A DNA stretch of 51,850 nucleotides from a virus: the IMG/VR virus record IMGVR_UViG_3300010885_008444, positions 1 through 51,850 of that record; one strand, 5' to 3'. Below are positions 3,001 through 44,769 of this stretch, in pieces. A model generated the notes under the pieces. It was not told the DNA's origin. It saw nothing but the letters and a program-made list of their open reading frames with translations, and did not search any database. The position numbers were made by a program, and so were the translations under genes. Within the stretch, counting starts at the first letter, position 1. Every line of letters begins with the position of its first letter.

Positions 3001-5599
3001 CCAACGCCTTGTTGACGCATTAGGAGAAGCAGAACGGTATCCTGCTTTAACTAAAGGTATGGATGCTTGGTATACGATGGACCCGCTATATCATGCGATG
3101 GTTAAAGAACTTGGTCCAGAATTAGCCGCCAAACGCTATACGCAAATGAATACCCGTATGGGTATGATGTCGCCGGGGTCTGATGTTGTTTCTGAAATTC
3201 AACGTGGTCTTGGTGCTGATTATATGACTGAGCAAGGGCGGTTTCCAGAATTTTCAAAAATGGGAGGAATTGGTAAATATGTTCGTCCTTCTAGTTTCCC
3301 ATCTGAACTTTTATCTATGCCGGGCCATCCATATCATTCCACGTCTCACATGGGGCCAATGGCAAAATTTAATGAAACTGGCGAATTGGACATGGGATCG
3401 CCAAAAGTTCCATTATATATACAATCATCAAATGCTCCTGAACTAGGGCAACAAACTCGTTGGCCTGTTCCTGATGCACATTTTGCTCGCGGCGTTGGCA
3501 TGGGTGAAACAAGAACAGCTAAAGATTTTAAACCATCTATGAATATGGCTGAATACCGTCCTTTTGGTGAATGGTATTATCAAAATGTTGCACAACCTTT
3601 GGGGTTAGAAGGTGTTCCTGCACAGGCTCGCCAATGGGGTCTCATGGGTCATGCTACGGGGGTAGAGACGGATATTGGCGCACCTAAATTAGAAATGCTT
3701 GCTCAACATATTATGGAATCTGCGCGACGTAATGGAGTTGATCCAATTACGGCTCGCAATGAAATTATAAGAGGCAATATGTATAATCATGGCGGTCGCA
3801 CATTGGGCAACAATGCCATTGATAACGCAATTCGCATGGCTCGCGGTGGTGAGGCAAGTGATGGCATCAATGAGCCATCTATTTTGGACACAGCATCACC
3901 AATAGAAGTTCCTCATTCGTTGCAGGAATTGCAAAATTGGAAAAAAACTCATCCGCGTCCGTTAAACAAGCATGCGATGGATGACATCTTCAGCTTGCGC
4001 TTGTCTGGCGTTGAGGGCGGTGAGCCAATTGCTATGCCAGCCAACTTAGATGAGTTGCTTGCTGATCTACGCAGAAGGCATCACGCTTCTGGCGGCAGGC
4101 TGCATTATGAAGATGGTGGTGAAGCTGATGGCGGCGATCCACGCGGTAACGAAGCGGGCATGGCGGATCGTTCGCAGTCAGATAGTAACTACGGTGGCGA
4201 TCCACGCGGCAATGAGCGTGGTTTTGCGGATATGTCGCGTCCGGATAATAATCCATCAGATGTTGACCGTTTTTCATTTGGCCGTGATTTTGATGTTTCA
4301 GGCGGCAACTACACGGGCCATGAGATGCCGACTGGATTAGTTGGATACTCTGAGCAACGCATGAACACGCCATACGAAGGCAGCTTGTTAAGCGCAACTA
4401 TGGACCCAAGCAATGCATTTGGCATGGGATACGGCTCATTGGTTGGAAAACAAAACACACGCGCTGGTGCGGCTGGGTTACTTGGTAGTGCAATGGGTGA
4501 AAGCGGCCAAGAACTTGATCCGTCAGCCATCAATGCTGGTTCTATTGGCATGTTCCAACACACGGGATCACGCGCAAGGGATTTAAGAGATGTGCTTGGA
4601 ATTGGCCAAGGAGTGAGGGGCAATGAATTGCGCGATGCCTTGGCTGGCTCTCAAATGCCACAACTTGGATTTGCATTAAATGAGATAGCTACGAACCCAG
4701 CTTATGCAGATACAAGAAATGCTATGAGAACGGGAACCAATGCGGCTGATGTTGCGGATGTTGCGTTGGAAAATTTTGAACGTCCATCATTGGAAAATCA
4801 AATTAAATCTGCACCATCCCGTGAGGCATATGCCCGTGGCATTATGGCTGGGCGTCCGTCGGGAGCAACTTTAGGTGTTGGGCAATATGATGGAACTCCT
4901 AGTAGCATTAGGGACGCACTAAGAAGCGGTGCGGATTTGGCTAAAACCCAAAGGGGACGCTTTGGTGCTTCAGATATTTATGCTGCCAACAACGCAGGCA
5001 ATGTTGGTGCAAATGCTCTTGTTGGATCATATGACAACAGCACGCTTTCTGGCGACACGGCAGATGACACTTTAGAAAATGCAATGCCAAGAACACCCGT
5101 TGAAAGTTTTGAAGACCCTGCATTAATTGCGGCTTATAATGCACAATACGGACTTAGTGGGCCTAAAAATGCCTATGCTGACATGACATTAGGCCAAAGA
5201 ACGCCTGATGTGACCACTAACAACCCATTTATTAATGCGGTTCAAGGTTTTGGTGGTTTCCTTGCGGATAGATTTACACCATCTTATGGTTTGAACTCAC
5301 CGGAATACAATAAAATCAGTCAGGCAGTTTATCCAAATCGTGATCAATCTTCAGATTATCGCGGTGATCATGGCGTGCAGCAGCAAGCTATCAATCAGGC
5401 TATGGCTTTGGCTGCCTCGCAAAAGGTGGCTGCTCCATACACAACTGAACTTGGAACGTATAATCAACAACTTCCAACCGTTGACGGCATGACTGCTGAA
5501 CAATGGGCGGCTGCTCACACGGGTGGGGATATGTCCAAGGTTCACGGTCGCATCAAATATGTAAACGGTGCGCCAAGGTTGGAATATTATACGATATAA
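2..5599 (+). CDS. Large polyvalent virion protein with tail-lysozyme-like domain (5' partial)
   Basis: The frame is open to the window edge: the codons before the first ATG at 44 read VEGLIGSRGLGSTG, which joins smoothly to the rest, so that ATG is probably internal. At least 1865 residues are present. Around residues 280-345 is a conserved block with FRAVHDAFGH and a GEERAW..H motif. Around 425-560 is a region loosely like ADP-ribosyltransferase domains of phage polyvalent proteins (weak). A later block resembles phage tail lysozyme: GSAMGESG, with candidate catalytic Glu near residue 1500, then GSIGMFQHTGSR. Two near-identical copies of a 62-residue segment lie near residues 585-646 and 838-899. 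Basic Gly-Gly motifs (KEGGR, HHASGGR) separate the blocks. It is likely packaged or ejected with the genome and degrades peptidoglycan; function beyond the lysozyme-like part is unknown. Confidence 0.8.
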   Translation, partial: VEGLIGSRGLGSTGMSLSDFVPVAGSILPAQEAVQQGDYKTAAMSMIPMEGSIAKRLAANEAQTLKGLAYETAQHGPFYRISPRTAGADQPAISGFGQKEWTGSPADIRGTGPSAYGTSQLDPITGESSILMPPAEQNAPLQAANQYVADRGFSAVTQPEMPRSSLAKQSAIGRTFQLASEDSPAYKTAIFDAYQRAMPEVVEQSGAQNYDQLLEASYRQMAKETDEQFKKLPLRFSFHKAGEGDYENSAQMLQDVHNNNHLFVFQGGDRHDFLHNIDPDTGLNENEKFRAVHDAFGHAILGNTFGAQGEERAWGLHSQMYSPLARLAMTAETRGQNSFVNYTPVNMKVFDNLGQYEMQMVDALRKGDKNAIEELKKVKKEIMGDWQFAPQKSVLLPPEFLSTEYNGGMPEYVRSLVKPKTGTTFSSSLTHFSRDPNMTMTDPTLYGTGLKGDERDRIFGMPGGVANRSYFYLGDPRRVSPEPGLGSQRYSSSSENLYNWNQDPLGLWNISQELNRAPATAKNDPAWIKMPQAKNDVERLAKEYGYSGIANTKHRYPMAVMFDPTPVQRVGRKEGGRIGYATLGGVPEDDIEDAKNIAYGRDAGARDIENKIKGLATFQSGLDMQVANPSFHTGLDRPSMGGAGMPSNMPILHNRLTNDEIENHSSAIAEAMQNHFGVPVSVSKSKTPYGVSHYVKPQFDLPESETPFVIRVSDHAAWVPRLHQIEHHLYPKSNDDPKKFINESIDATKNYGQKVGLFSKDEFVPLIGDVYHQTFGKGTIINSQPDFAKVDFGDKGIKNISSRFLQPVADQNINKARGGDVRMHHAGGGRAGYATLGGVPEDDIEDAKNIAYGRDAGARDIENKIKGLATFQSGLDMQVANPSFHTGLDRPSTGGAGMPTRILAGNPSNIQEEITVIRPTVDNPQRIAYPGVYERPDIMAAKAAARVAPEDPALKQLFGVTRDDLYQMSKDRKGTAVPDIMLGKGKTPDTVDAIMNQRNAQRLVDALGEAERYPALTKGMDAWYTMDPLYHAMVKELGPELAAKRYTQMNTRMGMMSPGSDVVSEIQRGLGADYMTEQGRFPEFSKMGGIGKYVRPSSFPSELLSMPGHPYHSTSHMGPMAKFNETGELDMGSPKVPLYIQSSNAPELGQQTRWPVPDAHFARGVGMGETRTAKDFKPSMNMAEYRPFGEWYYQNVAQPLGLEGVPAQARQWGLMGHATGVETDIGAPKLEMLAQHIMESARRNGVDPITARNEIIRGNMYNHGGRTLGNNAIDNAIRMARGGEASDGINEPSILDTASPIEVPHSLQELQNWKKTHPRPLNKHAMDDIFSLRLSGVEGGEPIAMPANLDELLADLRRRHHASGGRLHYEDGGEADGGDPRGNEAGMADRSQSDSNYGGDPRGNERGFADMSRPDNNPSDVDRFSFGRDFDVSGGNYTGHEMPTGLVGYSEQRMNTPYEGSLLSATMDPSNAFGMGYGSLVGKQNTRAGAAGLLGSAMGESGQELDPSAINAGSIGMFQHTGSRARDLRDVLGIGQGVRGNELRDALAGSQMPQLGFALNEIATNPAYADTRNAMRTGTNAADVADVALENFERPSLENQIKSAPSREAYARGIMAGRPSGATLGVGQYDGTPSSIRDALRSGADLAKTQRGRFGASDIYAANNAGNVGANALVGSYDNSTLSGDTADDTLENAMPRTPVESFEDPALIAAYNAQYGLSGPKNAYADMTLGQRTPDVTTNNPFINAVQGFGGFLADRFTPSYGLNSPEYNKISQAVYPNRDQSSDYRGDHGVQQQAINQAMALAASQKVAAPYTTELGTYNQQLPTVDGMTAEQWAAAHTGGDMSKVHGRIKYVNGAPRLEYYTI
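1754..1939 (+). repeat. Intragenic direct repeat, copy 1
   Basis: This 186-base segment is repeated 759 bases downstream, in frame, at 2513-2698, with about four mismatches by eye. It encodes a segment starting GVPEDDIEDAKNIAYG and ending just after HTGLDRPS. The near identity at the DNA level suggests a recent duplication or ongoing gene conversion inside the polyvalent gene. Confidence 0.9.
2513..2698 (+). repeat. Intragenic direct repeat, copy 2
   Basis: Second copy of the repeat at 1754-1939. The few differences include gga-cta-gcc versus gga-tta-gct (silent) and Met versus Thr near the end of the block. Protein similarity extends a few residues upstream of the DNA repeat (GYATLGG in both copies), directly after a basic Gly-Gly motif in each case. 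Confidence 0.9.
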
Positions 5600-5658: not shown

Positions 5659-7059
5659 ATGTCCAAGCTGTCAGATTCCATCAAAAACCCTATGCGTGAT
5701 AAGGCCAAGCGCCTGACATCGGGTGAGCCTCATACCAAGGTGGATTCTTCCACATGGACGCCTCCAGAGATGGAAAACGCTGGCATTAAGACTGGTTTAC
5801 GGCCACTCAGCAAGCGCCAATACAAGTCTGGCGGCAAAGTTCATGGTCACGACGCCAAGAAGCGCGGTGATCGTGCAATGCGTAAGTCTGGTGGACGCAC
5901 TGAGAGTGAAGACCGTTCAAAGCGTTATCTCACGCCTGACAATTTGCTAAACCGCGATGTACGCATGGCGAATGAAGCCCGTGAAGGCATCAAGCATGTT
6001 GGTGGTTTCAAGAAGGGCGGCAAGATTAAGCGTTCGCACCACATGGATGGTGGCGTTCCTGATTATACGCCAGAGCAGATTGCTTTGGCAAAGCGCGGCA
6101 TTGATCCATTCGGTGGTGATCGCACCACGGCACCGAGAGTTATGCCTGTTAAACGTCTTGTTCGCCTTCCAGTTCCTGTTCCGGTCGCACGTCCATCCGA
6201 TATGGATTACGTTCCAATGCCAACGCCACGTCCTTCTAATTTAAAGAAGGGTGGCAAAGTATCGGAAATGGAGTGGGAACACTCAAAGGCTGATCTCAAG
6301 CAAGACAAAAAGTTGGCCAAGAAGCATGGCATGTCTATGGAGGCTTGGGAAAAGTCTGATTTAGACAAAAAGCACGACAAGCAGCAGTCGGCTGAAGGTC
6401 TTTGCTATGGCGGCAAGGCAAAGAAGGCTGATGGTGGCAAGATTAAATGGATTCAGGGTGCTATTAAGCATCCGGGTTCATTGCATAAGGCACTTCATGT
6501 TCCTGAAGGCGAGAAGATTCCTGCAAAGAAGTTGGAAAAAGCTACGCATAGCAAAAACCCTAAGCTGGCTAAGAAGGCTCATCTTGCTGAGACGCTTAAG
6601 CGTATGCATCACGCTAAGGGTGGCGAAGTGTTCGCCGGAAATTCGGTTACTAAGATTCCGGGTGAAGTACCGGGTGGCCGCACCGCTCACAAGCATGGTG
6701 GCAAAGCAAAGGGCAAGACGCACATTAACATCAATGTGAATGCTCATCCTGCTGGTATGCCAATGGCTGGTGGCCCAATGGGTGTTCCTCCAATGCCTCC
6801 TCCTCCGCCTCCAATGCCACCGCGTCCTCCAATGGGTGGCCCAGCAGGTGGCGCACCGACTGATCCTGCTTTGCTGGCGGCTCTCGCTGGTGGCCGTGGC
6901 CCAATGGGAGGTGGTATGCCTCCAATGGGTGGCGGTATGCCAATGGCTCGTAAGTCTGGTGGCCGCGCAATGGGTCGCACTGAACATATTATTGACCACG
7001 CCGCTGGTGGTGGTCTTGGCCGTCTTGAAAAGATCAAGGCATACGGTCACAAAGCATAA
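5659..7059 (+). CDS. Lys/Gly/His-rich protein with repeated Gly-Gly motifs and a Pro/Met-rich stretch
   Basis: The protein has 466 residues. The ATG at 5659 is chosen over the upstream GTG at 5632 because CAGGAG lies 6 bases before it. It is very basic and contains at least eight motifs of the form (K/R/H)xGG(K/R), for example [27 protein letters not shown] and RKSGGRAMG. Near residues 370-425 is a low-complexity Pro/Met/Gly stretch with runs of PP. No enzymatic domain is recognised. The composition suggests binding of DNA or packing inside the capsid, and the same motif is shared with several late proteins here, so it is probably a virion component. It ends just before a strong terminator. 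Confidence 0.75.
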
Positions 7060-23865: not shown

Positions 23866-26097
23866 ATGCCTCATAATATGATGAAATATAAGCCGGGCGT
23901 TGATACGACATCAACAACGGCTTTAAATGATGGAAGCGAATACACTTCATCAAATCTCATTCGGTTTTTGCCGGATCGTGATGGAATGGGCCTTGTTCAA
24001 AAAATGGGCGGATGGGTTGCCTATTTTAACTCCGCCATTAGTTCAACAGTTCGCGCATTAAAAGGTTGGTCTGATCTAAATGGTGTCAATTATTTGGCAA
24101 TTGGAGCGGAGTCCTCTTTAAGCGTTTTATCGGGAAATGTTTTAGATGACATTACCCCACAATTAGCGACAACAAACACAACGCCTGTTTTTGTAACAAC
24201 GGCTGGTTCAAACGTAGTTACCGTCACGGATTCAAATATTTCTGGGTCTGTTTTGGACTATGTTAATTATGTCACCCCAGTATCAGTTGGCGGCTTGGTT
24301 CTTCAAGGTGCTTACCAATTGAAAACGGCTGCGGGGACGCAGTACACCATATATGCGTCTTCTCTGGCCACTACCACAGCAGACACTTCTGCAAACACAA
24401 TCATTACTGGCCTTACAACGGGACTCACATATAAAATTGTGACCGTTGGCGTTGGGTCAAATTGGACATCCATTGGTGCTTCTGCCGCGACCGTTGGAAC
24501 AATTTTTAACAAAAATAGCACAGTAGGCGTAGGTACAGGGACAGCAAAATTGGTTGCCGTACCAGCCTTCAGCACAACAAGTGGCCTATCCATAATCACA
24601 ACTTATCTGGACAATCACGGATATTCCGTTGGTGATCAATTTTATGTTGGTGTCTCAACGACCATTGGCGGTGTTACGCTGTTTGGTTCTTACACGGTGT
24701 TGTCTGTTACATCAGCAAGCATCTTTACGTTTTCTGCCGCCAACACTGCCACATCAACTGCTGGCCCAACCGCCATAAATAGCGGCAATGTTCGGTCAAC
24801 TTTTTATATTGCCACAGGCCCACAGCCTACTGGCACGGGATTTGGCGTTGGCGGTTTTGGTACTGGTGGCTTTGGTTTGGGGACAACTCAAACCCCAACC
24901 CCCGGAACGCCGATCACTGCGACAGATTGGACATTGGATAATTACGGACAAGACCTTGTTGCATGTCCAGCGGGTGGGGCCATTTATTATTGGCAGCCAG
25001 ATGGTCAAATTCAAAATGCTCAAATTGTTGGCGGCGATGCGCCTTTGGTCAACGATGGCATTTTTGTTGCTATGCCTGAGCGTCAAATTGTAGCTTACGG
25101 TTCTTCGTTTACACTTGCTCCCGACCCCCTTCTTGTTCGTTGGTCTGATGTTGGTGATTTTACAGTTTGGGCCGGAACCGTGACAAATCAAGCTGGTTCT
25201 TACCGTATCCCGTCAGGTTCAAAGATCGTCACTGGTATTCAAGGGCCACAGCAGGGTCTTTTGTGGACTGATCTTGATCTTTGGGCGATGCAGTATGTTG
25301 GCTTGCCATTTGTATATGGTTTTAACAAAATTGGATCAAACTGCGGTGCTATTGGTCGGCATTGCGTTGGTCAATTAAATAATGCTGTTTATTGGATGAG
25401 CCAAAAGCAATTCTTCATGAGTATGGGAAGCGGTCCACAAATTATACCTTGCTCTGTTTGGGATGCTGTCTTTCAAAATTTGAAGTCTGGCAATGATGCT
25501 AATGGCGTCCCCTACACCCAGCGCATTCGTTGCGCGGTGAACAGTCAGTTCAATGAAGTTATGTGGTTTTATCCGTCCGCCAATGGAACGGGCGAAAACG
25601 ACAGTTATGTTAAATACAATGTTGTCATGCAGTGCTGGGATTATGGATCACTCGGTCGCACGGCTTGGATTGATCAATCGGTTCTTGGGCCACCAATTGG
25701 CGCAGGATCAGACAATTTTCTGTATCAGCATGAAATTGGCAATGATGCGGCCTCTGGTACATCCACAACCGCCATGCTTTCAACGGCTGCAACTGGCTAT
25801 AGCCAGTTAAATGAAGCTGATAATTTGGTGTTTGTTGACCAAATTTGGCCTGATATGAAATGGGGAACATACAGCGGAAACCAAAACGCAACAGTCCAAA
25901 TCACATTTTTAGCAACAAACTACCCCGGAGATACGCCAATAACTTATGGCCCTTACAATATGACCCAAGCAACAGAATACATTTCTGTTCGCATTAGGGC
26001 GCGTCTTATGTCCATTCAACTCTCATCAAATGATGTTGGCACGTTTTGGCGTTTGGGTGCAGTGCGATATAGATACCAAATTGATGGAAAGTTTTAA
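23866..26097 (+). CDS. P22 gp10-like tail protein (packaged DNA stabilisation), with inserted modules
   Basis: The protein has 743 residues. The beginning (MMKYKPGVDTTSTTALNDGS, LIRFLPDRDGMGLVQKMGGW) and the later half (RWSDVGDFTVWAG, GPQQGLLWTDLDLWAMQYVG, NGVPYTQRIRCAVNSQFNEV) match P22 gp10-type nozzle proteins. An insertion near residues 100-310 contains GLTYKIVTVGVGSNWTSIGA and GYSVGDQFYVGVS, a Ser/Thr-rich module common in phage adhesins. The protein probably forms the tail nozzle below the adaptor. GAGG precedes the ATG. Confidence 0.75.
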   Translation: MPHNMMKYKPGVDTTSTTALNDGSEYTSSNLIRFLPDRDGMGLVQKMGGWVAYFNSAISSTVRALKGWSDLNGVNYLAIGAESSLSVLSGNVLDDITPQLATTNTTPVFVTTAGSNVVTVTDSNISGSVLDYVNYVTPVSVGGLVLQGAYQLKTAAGTQYTIYASSLATTTADTSANTIITGLTTGLTYKIVTVGVGSNWTSIGASAATVGTIFNKNSTVGVGTGTAKLVAVPAFSTTSGLSIITTYLDNHGYSVGDQFYVGVSTTIGGVTLFGSYTVLSVTSASIFTFSAANTATSTAGPTAINSGNVRSTFYIATGPQPTGTGFGVGGFGTGGFGLGTTQTPTPGTPITATDWTLDNYGQDLVACPAGGAIYYWQPDGQIQNAQIVGGDAPLVNDGIFVAMPERQIVAYGSSFTLAPDPLLVRWSDVGDFTVWAGTVTNQAGSYRIPSGSKIVTGIQGPQQGLLWTDLDLWAMQYVGLPFVYGFNKIGSNCGAIGRHCVGQLNNAVYWMSQKQFFMSMGSGPQIIPCSVWDAVFQNLKSGNDANGVPYTQRIRCAVNSQFNEVMWFYPSANGTGENDSYVKYNVVMQCWDYGSLGRTAWIDQSVLGPPIGAGSDNFLYQHEIGNDAASGTSTTAMLSTAATGYSQLNEADNLVFVDQIWPDMKWGTYSGNQNATVQITFLATNYPGDTPITYGPYNMTQATEYISVRIRARLMSIQLSSNDVGTFWRLGAVRYRYQIDGKF

Positions 26098-36611: not shown

Positions 36612-36845
36612 ATGATAATTCGTCTTGATCCACCACTACCTGTAGTTACTCCGAAGGGCAGCGCGATGGCGCATTTCCTGTTGGATTACGGATACGAGCA
36701 TCATTTGATGTGGATATGTTTTCAGAATGAAACTGGAGAATGCTGGACATGGGAGAACCCTCAATTACGGATGCAGCCCAATTCAACGGCCAACCGTCTG
36801 TCAACGTCACTCATTGGCGGCATAGCGGGTCAGGCCACCCCATGA
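36612..36845 (+). CDS. Small conserved early protein
   Basis: Seventy-seven residues starting MIIRLDPPLPVVTPKGSAMA. It contains FLLDYGYEHHLMWICFQNET and GECWTWENPQLRMQPN. I recognise this as a frequent small phage protein of alphaproteobacterial phages, usually first in an early operon; its function is not known. AAAGG lies before the ATG. The stop overlaps the next start. Confidence 0.75.
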   Translation: MIIRLDPPLPVVTPKGSAMAHFLLDYGYEHHLMWICFQNETGECWTWENPQLRMQPNSTANRLSTSLIGGIAGQATP

Positions 36846-37030
36846 GAGTTTGGCGCAGGGCGTTCCAGATCACGTTGGATGATATTTCGTTTTTGACGGG
36901 TATCTCAATCGCCAGCCTGTCCCGCATTGAGCGATTTAAACAAACGCCACTGATCAGTGCGGCTCAGAAAATTATCAGTGTCTCCCACGGCCAACTTTCA
37001 CCAGCGGACTTCTTCAATGATCATTCTTGA
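36842..37030 (+). CDS. HTH (XRE-type) DNA-binding protein
   Basis: The ATG at 36842 overlaps the upstream stop (ATGA) and gives 62 residues. The segment ITLDDISFLTGISIASLSRI, followed by ERFKQTPLISAAQKI, is a helix-turn-helix of the Cro/C1 (XRE) type. An upstream in-frame start at 36740 exists but would overlap the preceding gene by over 100 bases. It probably acts as an early regulator, perhaps of the divergent promoter 250 bases upstream. Confidence 0.7.
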   Translation: MRVWRRAFQITLDDISFLTGISIASLSRIERFKQTPLISAAQKIISVSHGQLSPADFFNDHS

Positions 37031-40148: not shown

Positions 40149-40356
40149 AATGACAAATAAACTGCGGGTAAACCAAACCAGTGAGTTCGTGTTTACAGTG
40201 CATTGCGATGGGCAGGATGTTGCGTGGTGCCAGTGGTCGCCAGTGTGGAAAATGTGGCGCGTCCTGATGCTGACGGATAACAGGGTTCATCATCTGGCAG
40301 ATTTAAAAAGTATTTTTTCTTTGTGTGCGGATGAAATAGGTGTTGACACTATATAA
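40126..40356 (+). CDS. Small hypothetical protein
   Basis: Seventy-six residues from the ATG at 40126; a second ATG at 40150, one base after the primase stop, is an alternative start giving 68 residues. It contains FVFTVHCDGQDVAWCQWSPV and WKMWRVLMLTDN, a compact beta-type pattern with several Trp. The stop TAA at 40354-40356 lies inside the spacer of the first repeated promoter, so gene end and promoter are fused. No family is recognised. Confidence 0.65.
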   Translation: MMSFRDDEMTNKLRVNQTSEFVFTVHCDGQDVAWCQWSPVWKMWRVLMLTDNRVHHLADLKSIFSLCADEIGVDTI

Positions 40357-40416
40357 AGACTGCCGTAGAACAGAGACATCAACAACGGGCTACGGCCAAA
40401 CCAACGGAGATAGCAA
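40343..40416 (+). promoter_or_regulatory. Repeated promoter/leader unit, copy 1
   Basis: TTGACA at 40343-40348, 17-base spacer, TAGAAC at 40366-40371. The spacer ends in AAAGACTGCCG, shared with the other two copies. Downstream comes ACATCAACAACGG, then hairpin GGC-TACG-GCC at 40388-40397, then ACGGAGA as ribosome binding site before the ATG at 40417. The promoter overlaps the end of the preceding gene. Confidence 0.85.
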
Positions 40417-40572
40417 ATGAAATACGAGATCGTAAAAAAAGATAAGGGTACTCATCCTTTTCATATTGTGTTTGATGGTTGCGTTGATGTCGCCCATGCC
40501 ATCACTCGCGAGGCTGCGGAAATCATTCTTGTTGCTTTAGTAGCCGCAAATTACGAGGTGGCAGATGATTAA
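40417..40572 (+). CDS. Small hypothetical protein, 51 residues
   Basis: This gene encodes 51 residues: MKYEIVKKDKGTHPFHIVFD followed by GCVDVAHAITREAAEIILVA. It is acidic-basic mixed with a C-terminal helix. GGAGA lies 7 bases before the ATG, and a leader with a conserved hairpin precedes it. The stop overlaps the next start by eight bases (ATGATTAA). No known family is recognised. Confidence 0.75.
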   Translation: MKYEIVKKDKGTHPFHIVFDGCVDVAHAITREAAEIILVALVAANYEVADD

Positions 40573-40768
40573 GATCGTTAAAATAAAGCCACGAGAATGG
40601 CACCCAAATTTTGGTTATACCAAAGCCGTCTATGGCATCATTGACCGCCCAGAAATCAGAATTGTTAAGGATTTTTTAGGTTGGCGTTGTTACGGAATTG
40701 GTGTCGGTTTAATGGCCGATAATCGCAAAGAATTAGAAAATCAGATTGCTAAAATATTGGAGATTTAA
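40565..40768 (+). CDS. Small hypothetical protein
   Basis: Sixty-seven residues: MIKIVKIKPREWHPNFGYTK, then AVYGIIDRPEIRIVKDFLGW, and a C-terminal helix DNRKELENQIAKILEI. It overlaps the end of the 51-residue gene and is in the same transcription unit. It looks like a compact alpha/beta protein. No family is recognised. Confidence 0.7.
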   Translation: MIKIVKIKPREWHPNFGYTKAVYGIIDRPEIRIVKDFLGWRCYGIGVGLMADNRKELENQIAKILEI

Positions 40769-40769
40769 A

Positions 40770-40970
40770 ATGGAACGCACACCTTTTCGTAATATCATCG
40801 GAATTGATCTAGCCATCCGAGAAGCGCGGAATAACGCAGAAGAACGCGATCTTTGGCGTGGCGGATACCTCGTCCTTGAACGCAAAGATACTGGTAAAAT
40901 GGTCGCTCACATCCATCCAGATTGCTTCTATGATCAAGATGGCAACAACTTTTCTTTTGATGCCGAATAA
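40770..40970 (+). CDS. Small hypothetical protein
   Basis: Sixty-six residues from the ATG at 40770, one base after the upstream stop, with TTGGAG as ribosome binding site. It contains LAIREARNNAEERDLWRGGY and LVLERKDTGKMVAHIHPDC. A longer frame from 40746 would overlap the preceding gene. It is third in the unit started by the first repeated promoter. Function unknown. Confidence 0.7.
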   Translation: MERTPFRNIIGIDLAIREARNNAEERDLWRGGYLVLERKDTGKMVAHIHPDCFYDQDGNNFSFDAE

Positions 40971-40977
40971 ATAAAAG

Positions 40978-41052
40978 TTGACACCATATAAAGACTGCCG
41001 TAAAACAGAGACATCAACAACGGCACTGCGGTGCAACCAAACGGAGATTAAA
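40978..41052 (+). promoter_or_regulatory. Repeated promoter/leader unit, copy 2
   Basis: TTGACA at 40978-40983, 17-base spacer ending AAAGACTGCCG, TAAAAC at 41001-41006. The leader carries ACATCAACAACGG and a hairpin GCAC-TGCG-GTGC at 41023-41034. ACGGAGA lies before the ATG at 41053. Same layout as the unit at 40343-40416, with different paired bases in the hairpin stem. Confidence 0.85.
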
Positions 41053-41355
41053 ATGAACATTCATCCTCTCAACATTGTAACCGAGTTTGATCTGGATATT
41101 GATTACGCCACCGTTAACTTCCAAGGCAAAAAGTTGTTGGTTGATGCCAAGGCTCGCGTTATTTACGGTTATGTAAATTACGGTGAGCCTGAATGGGAAT
41201 TTGAATGGGTCACAATCAATTATGTTTCTAATGATGATGGCGATAATGTCACTATGTCTGGAGATGAGGAGGCACAGTTGGCCGAAATCGTAAAACGCAG
41301 CACCACCCAATTTGATGATTATGTCATGTCTGAAATTGAAGACCGTTTGAACTGA
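41053..41355 (+). CDS. Small acidic hypothetical protein
   Basis: One hundred residues from the ATG at 41053; the frame is open further upstream to a TTG at 40978 but that is the promoter's -35 element and cannot be part of the mRNA. The protein begins MNIHPLNIVTEFDLDIDYAT, is beta-rich in the first half (ARVIYGYVNYGEPEWEFEWV) and ends in a helix with EEAQLAEIVKRST. It is acidic overall. No family is recognised. Confidence 0.75.
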   Translation: MNIHPLNIVTEFDLDIDYATVNFQGKKLLVDAKARVIYGYVNYGEPEWEFEWVTINYVSNDDGDNVTMSGDEEAQLAEIVKRSTTQFDDYVMSEIEDRLN

Positions 41356-41367
41356 GGAACAATAACA

Positions 41368-41559
41368 ATGGAAAACTTCTTAAAAATTAAAGATTTGAAG
41401 CCACACAAAATTGAAGAATTAGAAACCTTCTTAACGGAATTGTATATTGATTTAGAAGGAAAGGCAGACGCAGACCTTGATGACGACCGATTTGTGCCAA
41501 ACGAGGCTATGAGAAAAAAATGTGAGATAGATGCCATTTTTAATTTAAGATGGTGTTGA
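41368..41559 (+). CDS. Small acidic hypothetical protein
   Basis: Sixty-three residues: MENFLKIKDLKPHKIEELET, then FLTELYIDLEGKADADLDDD and NEAMRKKCEIDAIFNLRWC. GAGG lies before the ATG. The stop TGA at 41557-41559 overlaps the -35 box of the third repeated promoter, a repeat of the gene-end and promoter fusion seen at 40343. Function unknown. Confidence 0.7.
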   Translation: MENFLKIKDLKPHKIEELETFLTELYIDLEGKADADLDDDRFVPNEAMRKKCEIDAIFNLRWC

Positions 41560-41629
41560 CAGATAATAAAGACTGCCGTAATCTACATACATCAACAACG
41601 GCGCTGAGGCGCAACCCAAGGAGACTACC
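41556..41629 (+). promoter_or_regulatory. Repeated promoter/leader unit, copy 3
   Basis: TTGACA at 41556-41561, 17-base spacer ending AAAGACTGCCG, TAATCT at 41579-41584. The leader has ACATCAACAACGG, then the hairpin GCGC-TGAG-GCGC at 41601-41612, and AAGGAGA as ribosome binding site before ATG 41630. Confidence 0.85.
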
Positions 41630-41935
41630 ATGAGCAACGCAACTGATTTCACCGCAATGACCATAGCAGAAGTTGTGGACGCAGCCGCCTACCTCAAGGC
41701 GCAGATCAAAGAATTGGAGGCTCAGTTTGCTTCCGCTGAGAAGGTTATCCGTGACCGTGCCACCGCCAAGGAATTGCATGGCAATCTTTTTAAGGCAGTC
41801 TTTGCTGAAGGTTCGGTACGCTGGAACATTGATACCGACAAGGTTAAGCAAGAGATGGGCGAAGATTGGTGGCTGGCACGTTGCAAGGTGTCTACGCCTA
41901 AGCCATCTCTCTCCTTCAAGATCAACGTACAATGA
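41630..41935 (+). CDS. Small hypothetical protein with helical N-terminus
   Basis: The protein has 101 residues: MSNATDFTAMTIAEVVDAAA, a coiled-coil-like helix with AYLKAQIKELEAQFASAEKV, and a C-terminal part with WWLARCKVSTPKPSLSFKIN. Expressed from the third repeated promoter with a strong ribosome binding site. It overlaps the next gene by four bases. Looks like common small phage proteins with a cofactor-free helical hairpin; role unknown. Confidence 0.75.
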   Translation: MSNATDFTAMTIAEVVDAAAYLKAQIKELEAQFASAEKVIRDRATAKELHGNLFKAVFAEGSVRWNIDTDKVKQEMGEDWWLARCKVSTPKPSLSFKINVQ

Positions 41936-43216: not shown

Positions 43217-44769
43217 AATATCTTTCTGTTTGCTCCGGGATTGAAGCGGCTACCGTTGCTTGGCATTCGCTTGGGTGGGAGCCGTTGGCATTTAGCGAGA
43301 TTGAGCCATTCCCGCGCAAGGTTCTAACGCATCATTATCCTGATGTGCGGTTGGAAGGTGATTTTACTAAACTGCGTCAACAAGATTGGATTAAAGATGC
43401 AGACATTCTTGTTGGCGGCACACCCTGCCAAGCATTCTCTGTAGCAGGATTACGCAATAGCCTTGATGATGACCGAGGTAACTTAACATTAGAATTTGTA
43501 AGGTTAGCAGATGCAATTGACGATTTACGATTTTTTGGAGGAAAGCCAGCCAGTATCATCGTCTGGGAAAACGTCCCCGGCGTCCTCTCCGTCAAAGACA
43601 ATGCCTTTGGATGCTTCCTCGGAGCCATTGTGGGAAACGATGCACCCCTCGTCCCGACAGGGGGAAAATGGACAAACGCTGGTATGGTTGTGGGACCGAC
43701 AAGACGTGCAGCGTGGCGAGTTCTTGATGCTCAATACTTTGGATTGGCCCAACGCCGCAGACGTGTGTTCGTTGTCGCAAGTGCTAGAGACGGAATTGAT
43801 CCCGCAGAAGTTCTTTTTGAGCGCGAAGGCTTGCGAAGGGATACTCCGCCGAGCAGAAGCAAGGGGCAAGAAACTGCCAAATGCCTTACAACAGGCGTTG
43901 GTCAGCGTTACGATCCAGAAACAGAAACCTTGCCTGTAATGACCAATTCCCATGTTTCTGGAACATTATCGGCAAATGCGGGTGGATTAACTAGAGCCGC
44001 TGGTAACGCAAATGAATTAGATTTTTGTATAGCGCAGCCAATCGCTCTTGCAGAAAATATTATTGGGCGAAAACCAGAAAATGGCGGAAACGGTGATGGG
44101 TTCATAGATGGCGGCCCAATGTATACATTGAATGCTACTGGAGTTCATGGCGTCGCGCAGCCAATTCCATTTGGTGTTGGCGAGAACCCCGATCTTGGAC
44201 ATTGCTTGCGTTCTGGTGCGTCTAAAGCAGATAAGCATGAAAGCACGACATATGTGGCACAGCCAATCACTCAATATGGAGAAATCGCGGGTACATTATC
44301 AGCGCGTCACGATAGTTCGCCTTGCGCGGATCGGGGGCAGAATATGGTAGCGCAACCAATTCCAATTAATAGCATGAATGCTTTTCGTAGCCCTGATGCA
44401 GACAAAAGTACTGGTGTAGGTATTGGTGAAGAGGGTGAAGCCATGTTTACCCTTACAAAAGGGAATAGCCATGCGGTGGCGCAACCAATGGCAACACATG
44501 AAATTGCAGGCACAATGATTTCACATAATGGCGGTGGAGGATGGTCTAATTCAATAGATCATGCTGCTTCCGGTTATATGGCAATTCAACAGATGGCAGT
44601 GCGCCGCCTTACACCACGGGAATGTGAACGCCTACAAGGTTTCCCTGACGATTATACCTACATCCCCGGCGCGACTGATAGCCCTCGGTATAAGGCATTG
44701 GGAAATAGCATGGCAGTGCCAGTGATGGCATGGATAGGTAAACGAATTGAGAGACACGAAAAGTTTTAA
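43213..44769 (+). CDS. C5 cytosine-specific DNA methyltransferase
   Basis: The protein has 518 residues. Motif I is CSGIEAATVAW (7-17), motif IV GGTPCQAFSVAG (catalytic Cys72), motif VI WENVPG (118-123), motif VIII QRRRRVFVVA (180-189), and motifs IX-X at the end (RRLTPRECERLQGFPDDY, YKALGNSMAVPVM). The target-recognition region near 225-450 holds five AQP(I/M) units spaced by variable segments, an organisation seen in phage enzymes with several target modules. ATG 43213 has GAGGAA nine bases upstream. It probably protects phage DNA from host restriction. A nested frame at 43511-43939 overlaps it. Confidence 0.95.
   Translation: MKYLSVCSGIEAATVAWHSLGWEPLAFSEIEPFPRKVLTHHYPDVRLEGDFTKLRQQDWIKDADILVGGTPCQAFSVAGLRNSLDDDRGNLTLEFVRLADAIDDLRFFGGKPASIIVWENVPGVLSVKDNAFGCFLGAIVGNDAPLVPTGGKWTNAGMVVGPTRRAAWRVLDAQYFGLAQRRRRVFVVASARDGIDPAEVLFEREGLRRDTPPSRSKGQETAKCLTTGVGQRYDPETETLPVMTNSHVSGTLSANAGGLTRAAGNANELDFCIAQPIALAENIIGRKPENGGNGDGFIDGGPMYTLNATGVHGVAQPIPFGVGENPDLGHCLRSGASKADKHESTTYVAQPITQYGEIAGTLSARHDSSPCADRGQNMVAQPIPINSMNAFRSPDADKSTGVGIGEEGEAMFTLTKGNSHAVAQPMATHEIAGTMISHNGGGGWSNSIDHAASGYMAIQQMAVRRLTPRECERLQGFPDDYTYIPGATDSPRYKALGNSMAVPVMAWIGKRIERHEKF
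43511..43939 (+). CDS. Nested out-of-frame gene inside the cytosine methyltransferase
   Basis: The +2 frame of the methyltransferase gene encodes 142 residues with the pattern of a small phage protein family I recognise: IYDFLEESQPVSSSGKTSP, then GQTLVWLWDRQDVQRGEFLM, LNTLDWPNAADVCSLSQVLE and FFLSAKACEGILRRAEARGK. The start ATG at 43511 has TAAGG about 8 bases before it. The family is usually found free or overlapping such methyltransferases, and here it lies across motifs VI to VIII. Both frames look like coherent proteins. Its function is not known. Confidence is limited because a frame shadow of a conserved gene can look conserved. Confidence 0.5.
   Translation: MQLTIYDFLEESQPVSSSGKTSPASSPSKTMPLDASSEPLWETMHPSSRQGENGQTLVWLWDRQDVQRGEFLMLNTLDWPNAADVCSLSQVLETELIPQKFFLSAKACEGILRRAEARGKKLPNALQQALVSVTIQKQKPCL

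Follow-up and report, generated by a model that had tools for sequence, protein, structure and literature searches.

The window, a 51,850-base IMG/VR virus record, carries three same-direction units downstream of a primase gene (at 40343, 40978, and 41556), each joining promoter elements, a fixed leader, a covarying hairpin, and a ribosome-binding site in front of a small gene. We hold, with slightly better than even confidence, that each unit is a compact module for starting a short phage transcript, made up of a host-polymerase promoter, a fixed leader, and an insulating hairpin.

Three units of common layout

RusA, helicase, Toprim primase, and terminase genes place the window among the tailed phages; no close isolate of the phage was found. 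Each unit consists of TTGACA, a 17-base spacer ending in AAAGACTGCCG, a −10 element, ACATCAACAACGG (at 40376, 41011, and 41589), a hairpin, GGAG, and ATG, with hairpin-to-ATG distances of 19, 18, and 17 bases in units 1, 2, and 3, respectively. The original prediction had described this shared arrangement together with the stems GGC/GCC, GCAC/GTGC, and GCGC/GCGC and four-base loops, and we found every element at its described position; the hairpins are GGC(TACG)GCC, GCAC(TGCG)GTGC, and GCGC(TGAG)GCGC. The composite pattern matched exactly three times in the window, compared with 0 matches expected from 100 shuffles. A fourth ACATCAACAACGG, at 23908, was dismissed as a chance match, lying within a structural gene without promoter or ribosome-binding site (RBS). 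Unit 1 overlaps the end of a 76-aa ORF, and the 63-aa gene before unit 3 (41368-41559) has its stop codon within the −35 element of that unit. The Shine-Dalgarno (SD) regions are of the AACCAACGGAGA type. The features, all on the + strand, are as follows.

40315..40342, +, final part of the 76-aa ORF, directly before unit 1; resembles 40950-40977 upstream of unit 2 (19/28 identical)
40343..40348, +, unit 1 −35 TTGACA; TTGAC kept in nearly all relatives' units, including loci fetched through proteins only
40355..40365, +, unit 1 spacer motif AAAGACTGCCG, end of the 17-base spacer; phage-group-specific
40366..40371, +, unit 1 −10 TAGAAC; 17-base spacing conserved in relatives
40378..40387, +, unit 1 predicted +1 and conserved 5′ RNA leader AUCAACAACG; +1 placed by the T7 A1 register
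40388..40397, +, unit 1 RNA hairpin GGC(UACG)GCC; covariation among relatives
40406..40409, +, unit 1 Shine-Dalgarno GGAG; from sequence
40417..40572, +, 51-aa gene following unit 1, of no known family; an unrelated gene instead in contig L005
40978..40983, +, unit 2 −35 TTGACA; conserved in relatives
40990..41000, +, unit 2 spacer motif AAAGACTGCCG; from sequence
41001..41006, +, unit 2 −10 TAAAAC; relatives' spacing
41013..41022, +, unit 2 predicted +1 and leader AUCAACAACG; leader conservation
41023..41034, +, unit 2 RNA hairpin GCAC(UGCG)GUGC; covariation
41043..41046, +, unit 2 Shine-Dalgarno GGAG; from sequence
41053..41355, +, gene 2, 100 aa, unknown family; most related contigs have an orthologue that follows a unit
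41556..41561, +, unit 3 −35 TTGACA; conserved in relatives
41568..41578, +, unit 3 spacer motif AAAGACTGCCG; from sequence
41579..41584, +, unit 3 −10 TAATCT; relatives' spacing
41591..41600, +, unit 3 predicted +1 and leader AUCAACAACG; leader conservation
41601..41612, +, unit 3 RNA hairpin GCGC(UGAG)GCGC; covariation
41620..41623, +, unit 3 Shine-Dalgarno GGAG; from sequence
41630..41935, +, gene 3, 101 aa, unknown family; a unit precedes gene 3 in every relative having gene 3

Elsewhere in the window (44151-44494), a 20-nt repeat of the GGTAGCGCAACCAATTCCAA type occurs three times inside a C5 cytosine methylase ORF, within a repetitive insert rich in AQP motifs.

Paired changes in the hairpin

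Pattern and protein scans detected hairpin-bearing units in about 15 further contigs. MAFFT alignment of all units misplaced the stems, and a covariance model was built from seven units instead; the search for further copies that had been proposed for the window units returned two or three matches in most of these contigs, all before genes. In the model alignment of 34 matches in related IMG/VR contigs, which is fitted to the structure, all 106 of the 106 counted pair cells held standard pairs, and two-sided changes numbered 13 against 4.4 in shuffles, a value reached in 0 of 500 shuffles. Sliding the pairing partner reduced the two-sided changes to 0–3. Since the alignment is structure-fitted and the contigs are related, orthologous positions were compared separately: before gene 3, 10/10 orthologous units were fully paired, compared with 4.1 in shuffles (p = 1.7e-4), and before gene 2 the figures were 8/8 and 3.8 (p = 0.006).

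The stems were of the types GGC/GCC, GCC/GGC, GCAC/GUGC, GUGC/GCAC, GCGC/GCGC, and GGGC/GCCC, with variation also at orthologous positions; the two inner pairs were CG/GC/UA and GC/AU/CG. The closing pair was C-G in 30/30 stems, and 20 of the 24 four-base loops were YNMG loops, 13 of them belonging to the UNCG class, which is known for unusual RNA stability. The constant closing C-G pair and the loop preference argue for an RNA rather than a DNA structure. In unit L017c, the terminal pair is broken. Folding energies of the leaders were unremarkable (z about 0), so the evidence for structure lies in the pattern of changes. Judged by that pattern, the hairpin is a selected RNA structure. The paired differences among the three window copies had already been read in this way; compensatory stem changes were sought in related phages and are present there, and they make the case far stronger than three copies allowed.

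If promoter and initial transcribed sequence alone mattered, the hairpin would be a tolerated insertion, in keeping with a folding energy that is not extreme and with the hairpin-less leader being the common form in other phages (see below). Two-sided changes and a loop preference are, however, hard to obtain without selection for pairing, and we consider this account very improbable. We give even less credence to a DNA operator or an intrinsic terminator/attenuator. The inverted repeat is G+C-rich and near a promoter, but stem sequences differ between the units of one phage, which argues against a single operator; moreover, AAACC, AACCA, and AACCC rather than a T-run follow the window stems, and the three hairpins were not among the terminator-like sites found. 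Rfam at gathering score gave 0 matches in the window.

The main rival to a structural role is a bound protein. The hairpin could be bound by an RNA-binding protein of phage or host origin that represses or activates translation or serves as a boxB-like antitermination factor, with the constant single-stranded flanks AUCAACAACG and AACCAACGGAG belonging to the site. These flanks stay constant while the stem covaries, and up to three units per phage would make joint control possible. On the other hand, the tetraloops vary (UACG, UGAG, UGCG, CACG, AACG, UUCG, and AAUG), as does loop length (triloops GAU, GCU, GAC, and AAC), even within one phage; many phages have the leader flank but not the hairpin; and no boxA-like element was seen. 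Protein binding therefore seems unlikely to us. Because stem and loop letters change freely, a role for stability rather than for a recognized sequence fits the hairpin better.

Promoter and predicted start

The 17-base spacing and the predicted start of the units agree with the sigma-70-type arrangement, in which −35 and −10 elements lie 16–18 bases apart and the start 6–8 bases further on. The −10 elements of the window are weak (TAGAAC, TAAAAC, and TAATCT), and nearly all relatives' units keep TTGAC and the 17-base spacing. Since a plain sigma-70 scan of the region showed no promoter excess (15 found vs 16.6 expected), the promoter reading rests on conservation and not on consensus score. 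Contigs L009 and L012-L018 were fetched through their proteins, so their units were not preselected; these loci keep TTGAC, the 17-base spacing, the −10-to-CATC distance (5–6 nt), the leader, the hairpin, and the SD.

In T7 promoter A1, the annotated start is the A that corresponds to the predicted +1 of the units. This register and the fixed spacing in the relatives support the earlier proposal of promoters with starts near 40378, 41013, and 41591, and we place the putative +1 at these three positions. The layout does not match an N4-type virion RNA polymerase promoter, in which the polymerase recognizes a hairpin upstream of +1; here the hairpin lies downstream of the −35/−10 pair.

A spacer motif specific to each phage group

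Exact AAAGACTGCCG was found in the three window units only, and other phage groups carry other motifs. The spacers of the window and L005 share AAAGACTGCC; those of L012-L018 share GTGGATGCGTT, with L013 and L014 (CAGCA-type spacers) as exceptions; and L022 and L026 have GGTTGAAA adjoining the −35 element. Mean spacer identity was 0.65 between units within a phage compared with 0.37 between phages. Across clades, the promoter spacer held 0.49 bits per position, with TTGAC and the last seven leader bases nearly fixed. A new observation is thus that the spacer motif is common to the units of one phage and specific to its group, whereas the RNA leader is the same in all.

Units 1 and 3 agree in the motif and are near-random around it, so the motif is kept by selection. 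The simplest reading is that a phage-specific factor probably binds it. The neighbouring 96-aa HTH protein, encoded at 36740-37030 and a candidate regulator, does not track the spacer classes: its recognition region is identical in L005 and L067, which have different spacers, and it is therefore not supported as the reader. The motif is no palindrome, and we found no factor for it.

Inheritance of the units

The related contigs share the order HTH – RusA – helicase – primase – 76-aa ORF – unit – gene 2 – (63-aa gene) – unit – gene 3. Genes 2 and 3 encode small proteins of unknown family that are conserved across this phage lineage directly behind the units. Gene 3 had no Pfam match and no confident PHROG match; its fold model, of middling confidence, comprises a long helix, a three-stranded stretch, and short helices, and no PDB match to the model was found. 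A weak extra unit (14.8 bits) lies at 4079-4120 on the minus strand of L029 before a distant gene-3 relative, with TTGACT, 17 bases, CTAGTG, GTCAACA, GGGC(GACA)GCCC, AAGGAG, and ATG. Bacterial genomes were rejected as a home of the hairpin unit, as 257 Gb gave two chance coding-sequence matches only, and the matches in L065, L066, and L068-L071 had the look of coincidences within coding sequence.

Over 74 nt (40315-40388 vs 40950-41023), units 1 and 2 share 85% identity; this stretch includes the 28 nt upstream of their promoters, which are 19/28 identical (p = 1e-5). On this likeness, unit 2 is evidently a local duplicate of unit 1. The gene behind unit 1 is unrelated between the window and L005, which lacks unit 2 and instead has a promoterless hairpin, GGGGGC(UUCG)GCCCCC, at 6386-6401, shortly before the RBS of the gene-2 orthologue. 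The likeness of units 1 and 2 and the swap between the window and L005 indicate that local duplication and gene replacement do happen. Genes 2 and 3 keep their units in relatives down to about 30% protein identity, and the units before these genes are old and mostly vertically inherited.

These data bear on the idea, proposed for the PeSLs of T4-type phages, that such a unit serves chiefly as a target for recombination and thus as a mobile regulatory cassette by which small genes are inserted or swapped. The identity of units 1 and 2 extends into their upstream sequence, L005 has exchanged the gene behind unit 1, and a single unit in L012-type phages corresponds to two units separated by three ORFs in the window, all of which this idea would explain. 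It accounts poorly for the retention of units by genes 2 and 3 across phages, and also for units 1 and 3, which are near-random outside motif and leader; since these two have diverged elsewhere, selection rather than recent copying keeps the units alike. We regard a mainly recombinational role as quite unlikely. The mobile expression cassette of the original prediction is accordingly borne out weakly, by one duplication and one gene replacement, but the units mostly stay with two conserved genes.

The leader occurs without the hairpin in other phages

We searched virus contigs with the pattern TTGAC-N18-TA-N8..11-CATCAACAACG, which matched at least 120 stretches. CATCAACAACG, beginning at the predicted +1, was present at at least 115 promoter sites in at least 101 other virus contigs, the matches listed being a lower bound. 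Among the listed sites, the spacing to the −10 element was 8, 9, 10, and 11 in 10, 90, 14, and 1 cases, respectively, and the four unconstrained −10 positions of the 115 sites resemble TATAAT. An SD and a start codon follow the leader in 100/115 listed sites, about 27 nt past the C of CATC, and in 23 listed sites the leader runs directly into the SD (CAACAACGGAG). Hairpins at the listed sites are of other kinds, except for two units in L160, which belong to the window's own family.

In the same context, permuted motifs gave 0–1 matches vs 68 for the real motif, a comparison that serves as a specificity check only, the loci having been chosen by motif. A whole-collection scan with the permuted decoy CAACATCAACG gave 19 distinct sites, 11 of them at spacing 9; these matches are partly real and the decoy is not a clean negative, probably because it contains a short leader form, CATCAACG. 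The leader was not found in about 580 Pseudomonadota genomes, and a partial literature search found no description of it.

Isolates with the leader include Burkholderia phage Bcep1 and T7-like Pseudomonas phages. In Kompost-2 and Lepni01, ACATCAACAACG or a near copy opens two early host promoters each in the same register (L072, 359-416 and about 530-590; L073, 431-486 and about 603-660), and T7 A1 has ATCGAGAGGGACACGG at the corresponding place. Since the leader lies some 400 nt before the first gene there, it is no translation element of the adjacent gene. We put forward, at a little under even confidence, that ACATCAACAACG at +1 may be a general 5′-end element of proteobacterial phage transcripts, which would act on host RNA polymerase escape or on the RNA 5′ end and be shared through convergence or module exchange by unrelated phages, among them T7-like Pseudomonas phages, Bcep1, and many uncultivated phages; in the window's phages this element would be derived, having gained an insulating hairpin by insertion and, in the promoter spacer, a control motif specific to the phage.

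Two further features were seen among hairpin-less leaders. Within 6.5 kb, L080 (6,482 bases of a 183,930-base contig) has eight promoter-leaders built as TACACT-ACTAA-CATCAAC...GGAG-ATG, all of which lack the hairpin of the window units. In L075-L187 (e.g. L093, L133, L121, L129, and L179), the non-transcribed −35/−10 spacer often holds an inverted repeat that varies from unit to unit (ATACCGCCCAAAAGGCGGT, ATACCCTCCAAAAGAGGGT, and AGGGTTTCCAAACCCT); the mean stem was 3.7 vs 2.8 in shuffled sequence (z 6.3; −0.3 inside genes), and these repeats fit neither a single operator nor an RNA of that promoter.

Proposed mechanism

In the start-module scheme, for which we infer the transcription start, its timing, the effect of the hairpin, and the spacer factor, host RNA polymerase would use the sigma-70-type promoter and start at the A of ATCAACAACG. 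The transcript would then open with the fixed unstructured leader AUCAACAACG, by itself a widespread phage element, which may have been selected for good promoter escape, translation, or both. A plain module of the form AUCAACAACG-GAG would have gained the hairpin and an A/C-rich linker between leader and SD in this lineage. The footprint of an initiating ribosome ends about 17–19 nt before the AUG, and the hairpin, standing 17–19 nt before it, would mark the upstream edge of that footprint; the SD was mostly unpaired on folding. The hairpin would most likely act mechanically, as a stable, sequence-free clamp that prevents the ribosome site from pairing and protects the short mRNA. Classic 5′-end protection is less likely because ten unpaired 5′ bases precede the hairpin. 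Small genes would in this way be made at a set level regardless of their surroundings, and a phage-specific factor would probably recognize the spacer motif and switch all units of a phage together.

If this scheme is right, these phages possess a natural, ready-to-use expression module of about 75 bases that combines promoter, leader, insulating hairpin, and ribosome site and whose numerous natural variants can be tested as reporters. If the wider proposal for the leader is right, very different phages have come to share their first ten transcribed bases, and the question of early-transcript start and translation efficiency becomes directly testable. The leader is also a search handle for promoters and starts of many unannotated phage genes.

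Comparison with known systems

Bacterial 5′ UTR stabilizing hairpins and synthetic RBS-insulator hairpins are small, stable, and placed just upstream of an exposed ribosome site. The window hairpins differ from these in being natural, repeated, tied to one promoter-leader, and preceded by 10 unpaired 5′ bases. Like the units, the early host promoters of T7-like Pseudomonas phages (Ghunavirus) combine TTGAC, about 16–17 bases, a −10 element, and ACATCAACAACG in the same register, at two promoters of one phage, but they lie about 400 nt from the first gene and have neither an SD nor such a hairpin by the leader.

PeSLs, as cited in PMC4503421 (Arbiol 2010, Comeau 2014), are described as promoter(early)-stem-loop mobile regulatory cassettes of T4-type phages and as promoter-terminator composites. 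In that account, they resemble the units in joining a promoter to a stem-loop between small genes, and gene shuffling is their proposed role; for the units, one duplication and one gene replacement were seen. Compared with them, the window stem-loop lies in the 5′ UTR downstream of the promoter and has no T-run. The terminator character so described was rejected for the three window hairpins, which lack a T-run and fall outside terminator-like sites.

The nearest described parallel is the SAS/ESAS system of cluster K mycobacteriophages, in which a shared start element is likewise combined with promoters that differ by group. SAS is a 13-bp GGGATAGGAGCCC that lies 3–9 bp from the start codons of certain small non-structural genes, and roughly half of its copies are linked to a sigma-type promoter element upstream; the consensus of the SAS-linked promoters differs between subclusters, while SAS itself is shared (PMC3203893, PMC11373665). 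The ESAS inverted repeat overlies the promoter, and the authors found little support for an mRNA hairpin (PMC3203893, PMC11373665). The window units are not SAS, as there is no 13-bp GGGATAGGAGCCC at their translation starts, nor ESAS, as no long (15–17 bp) inverted repeat lies over the promoter. In contrast to SAS/ESAS, the window element begins at the predicted +1 and is separated from the SD by a covarying RNA hairpin.
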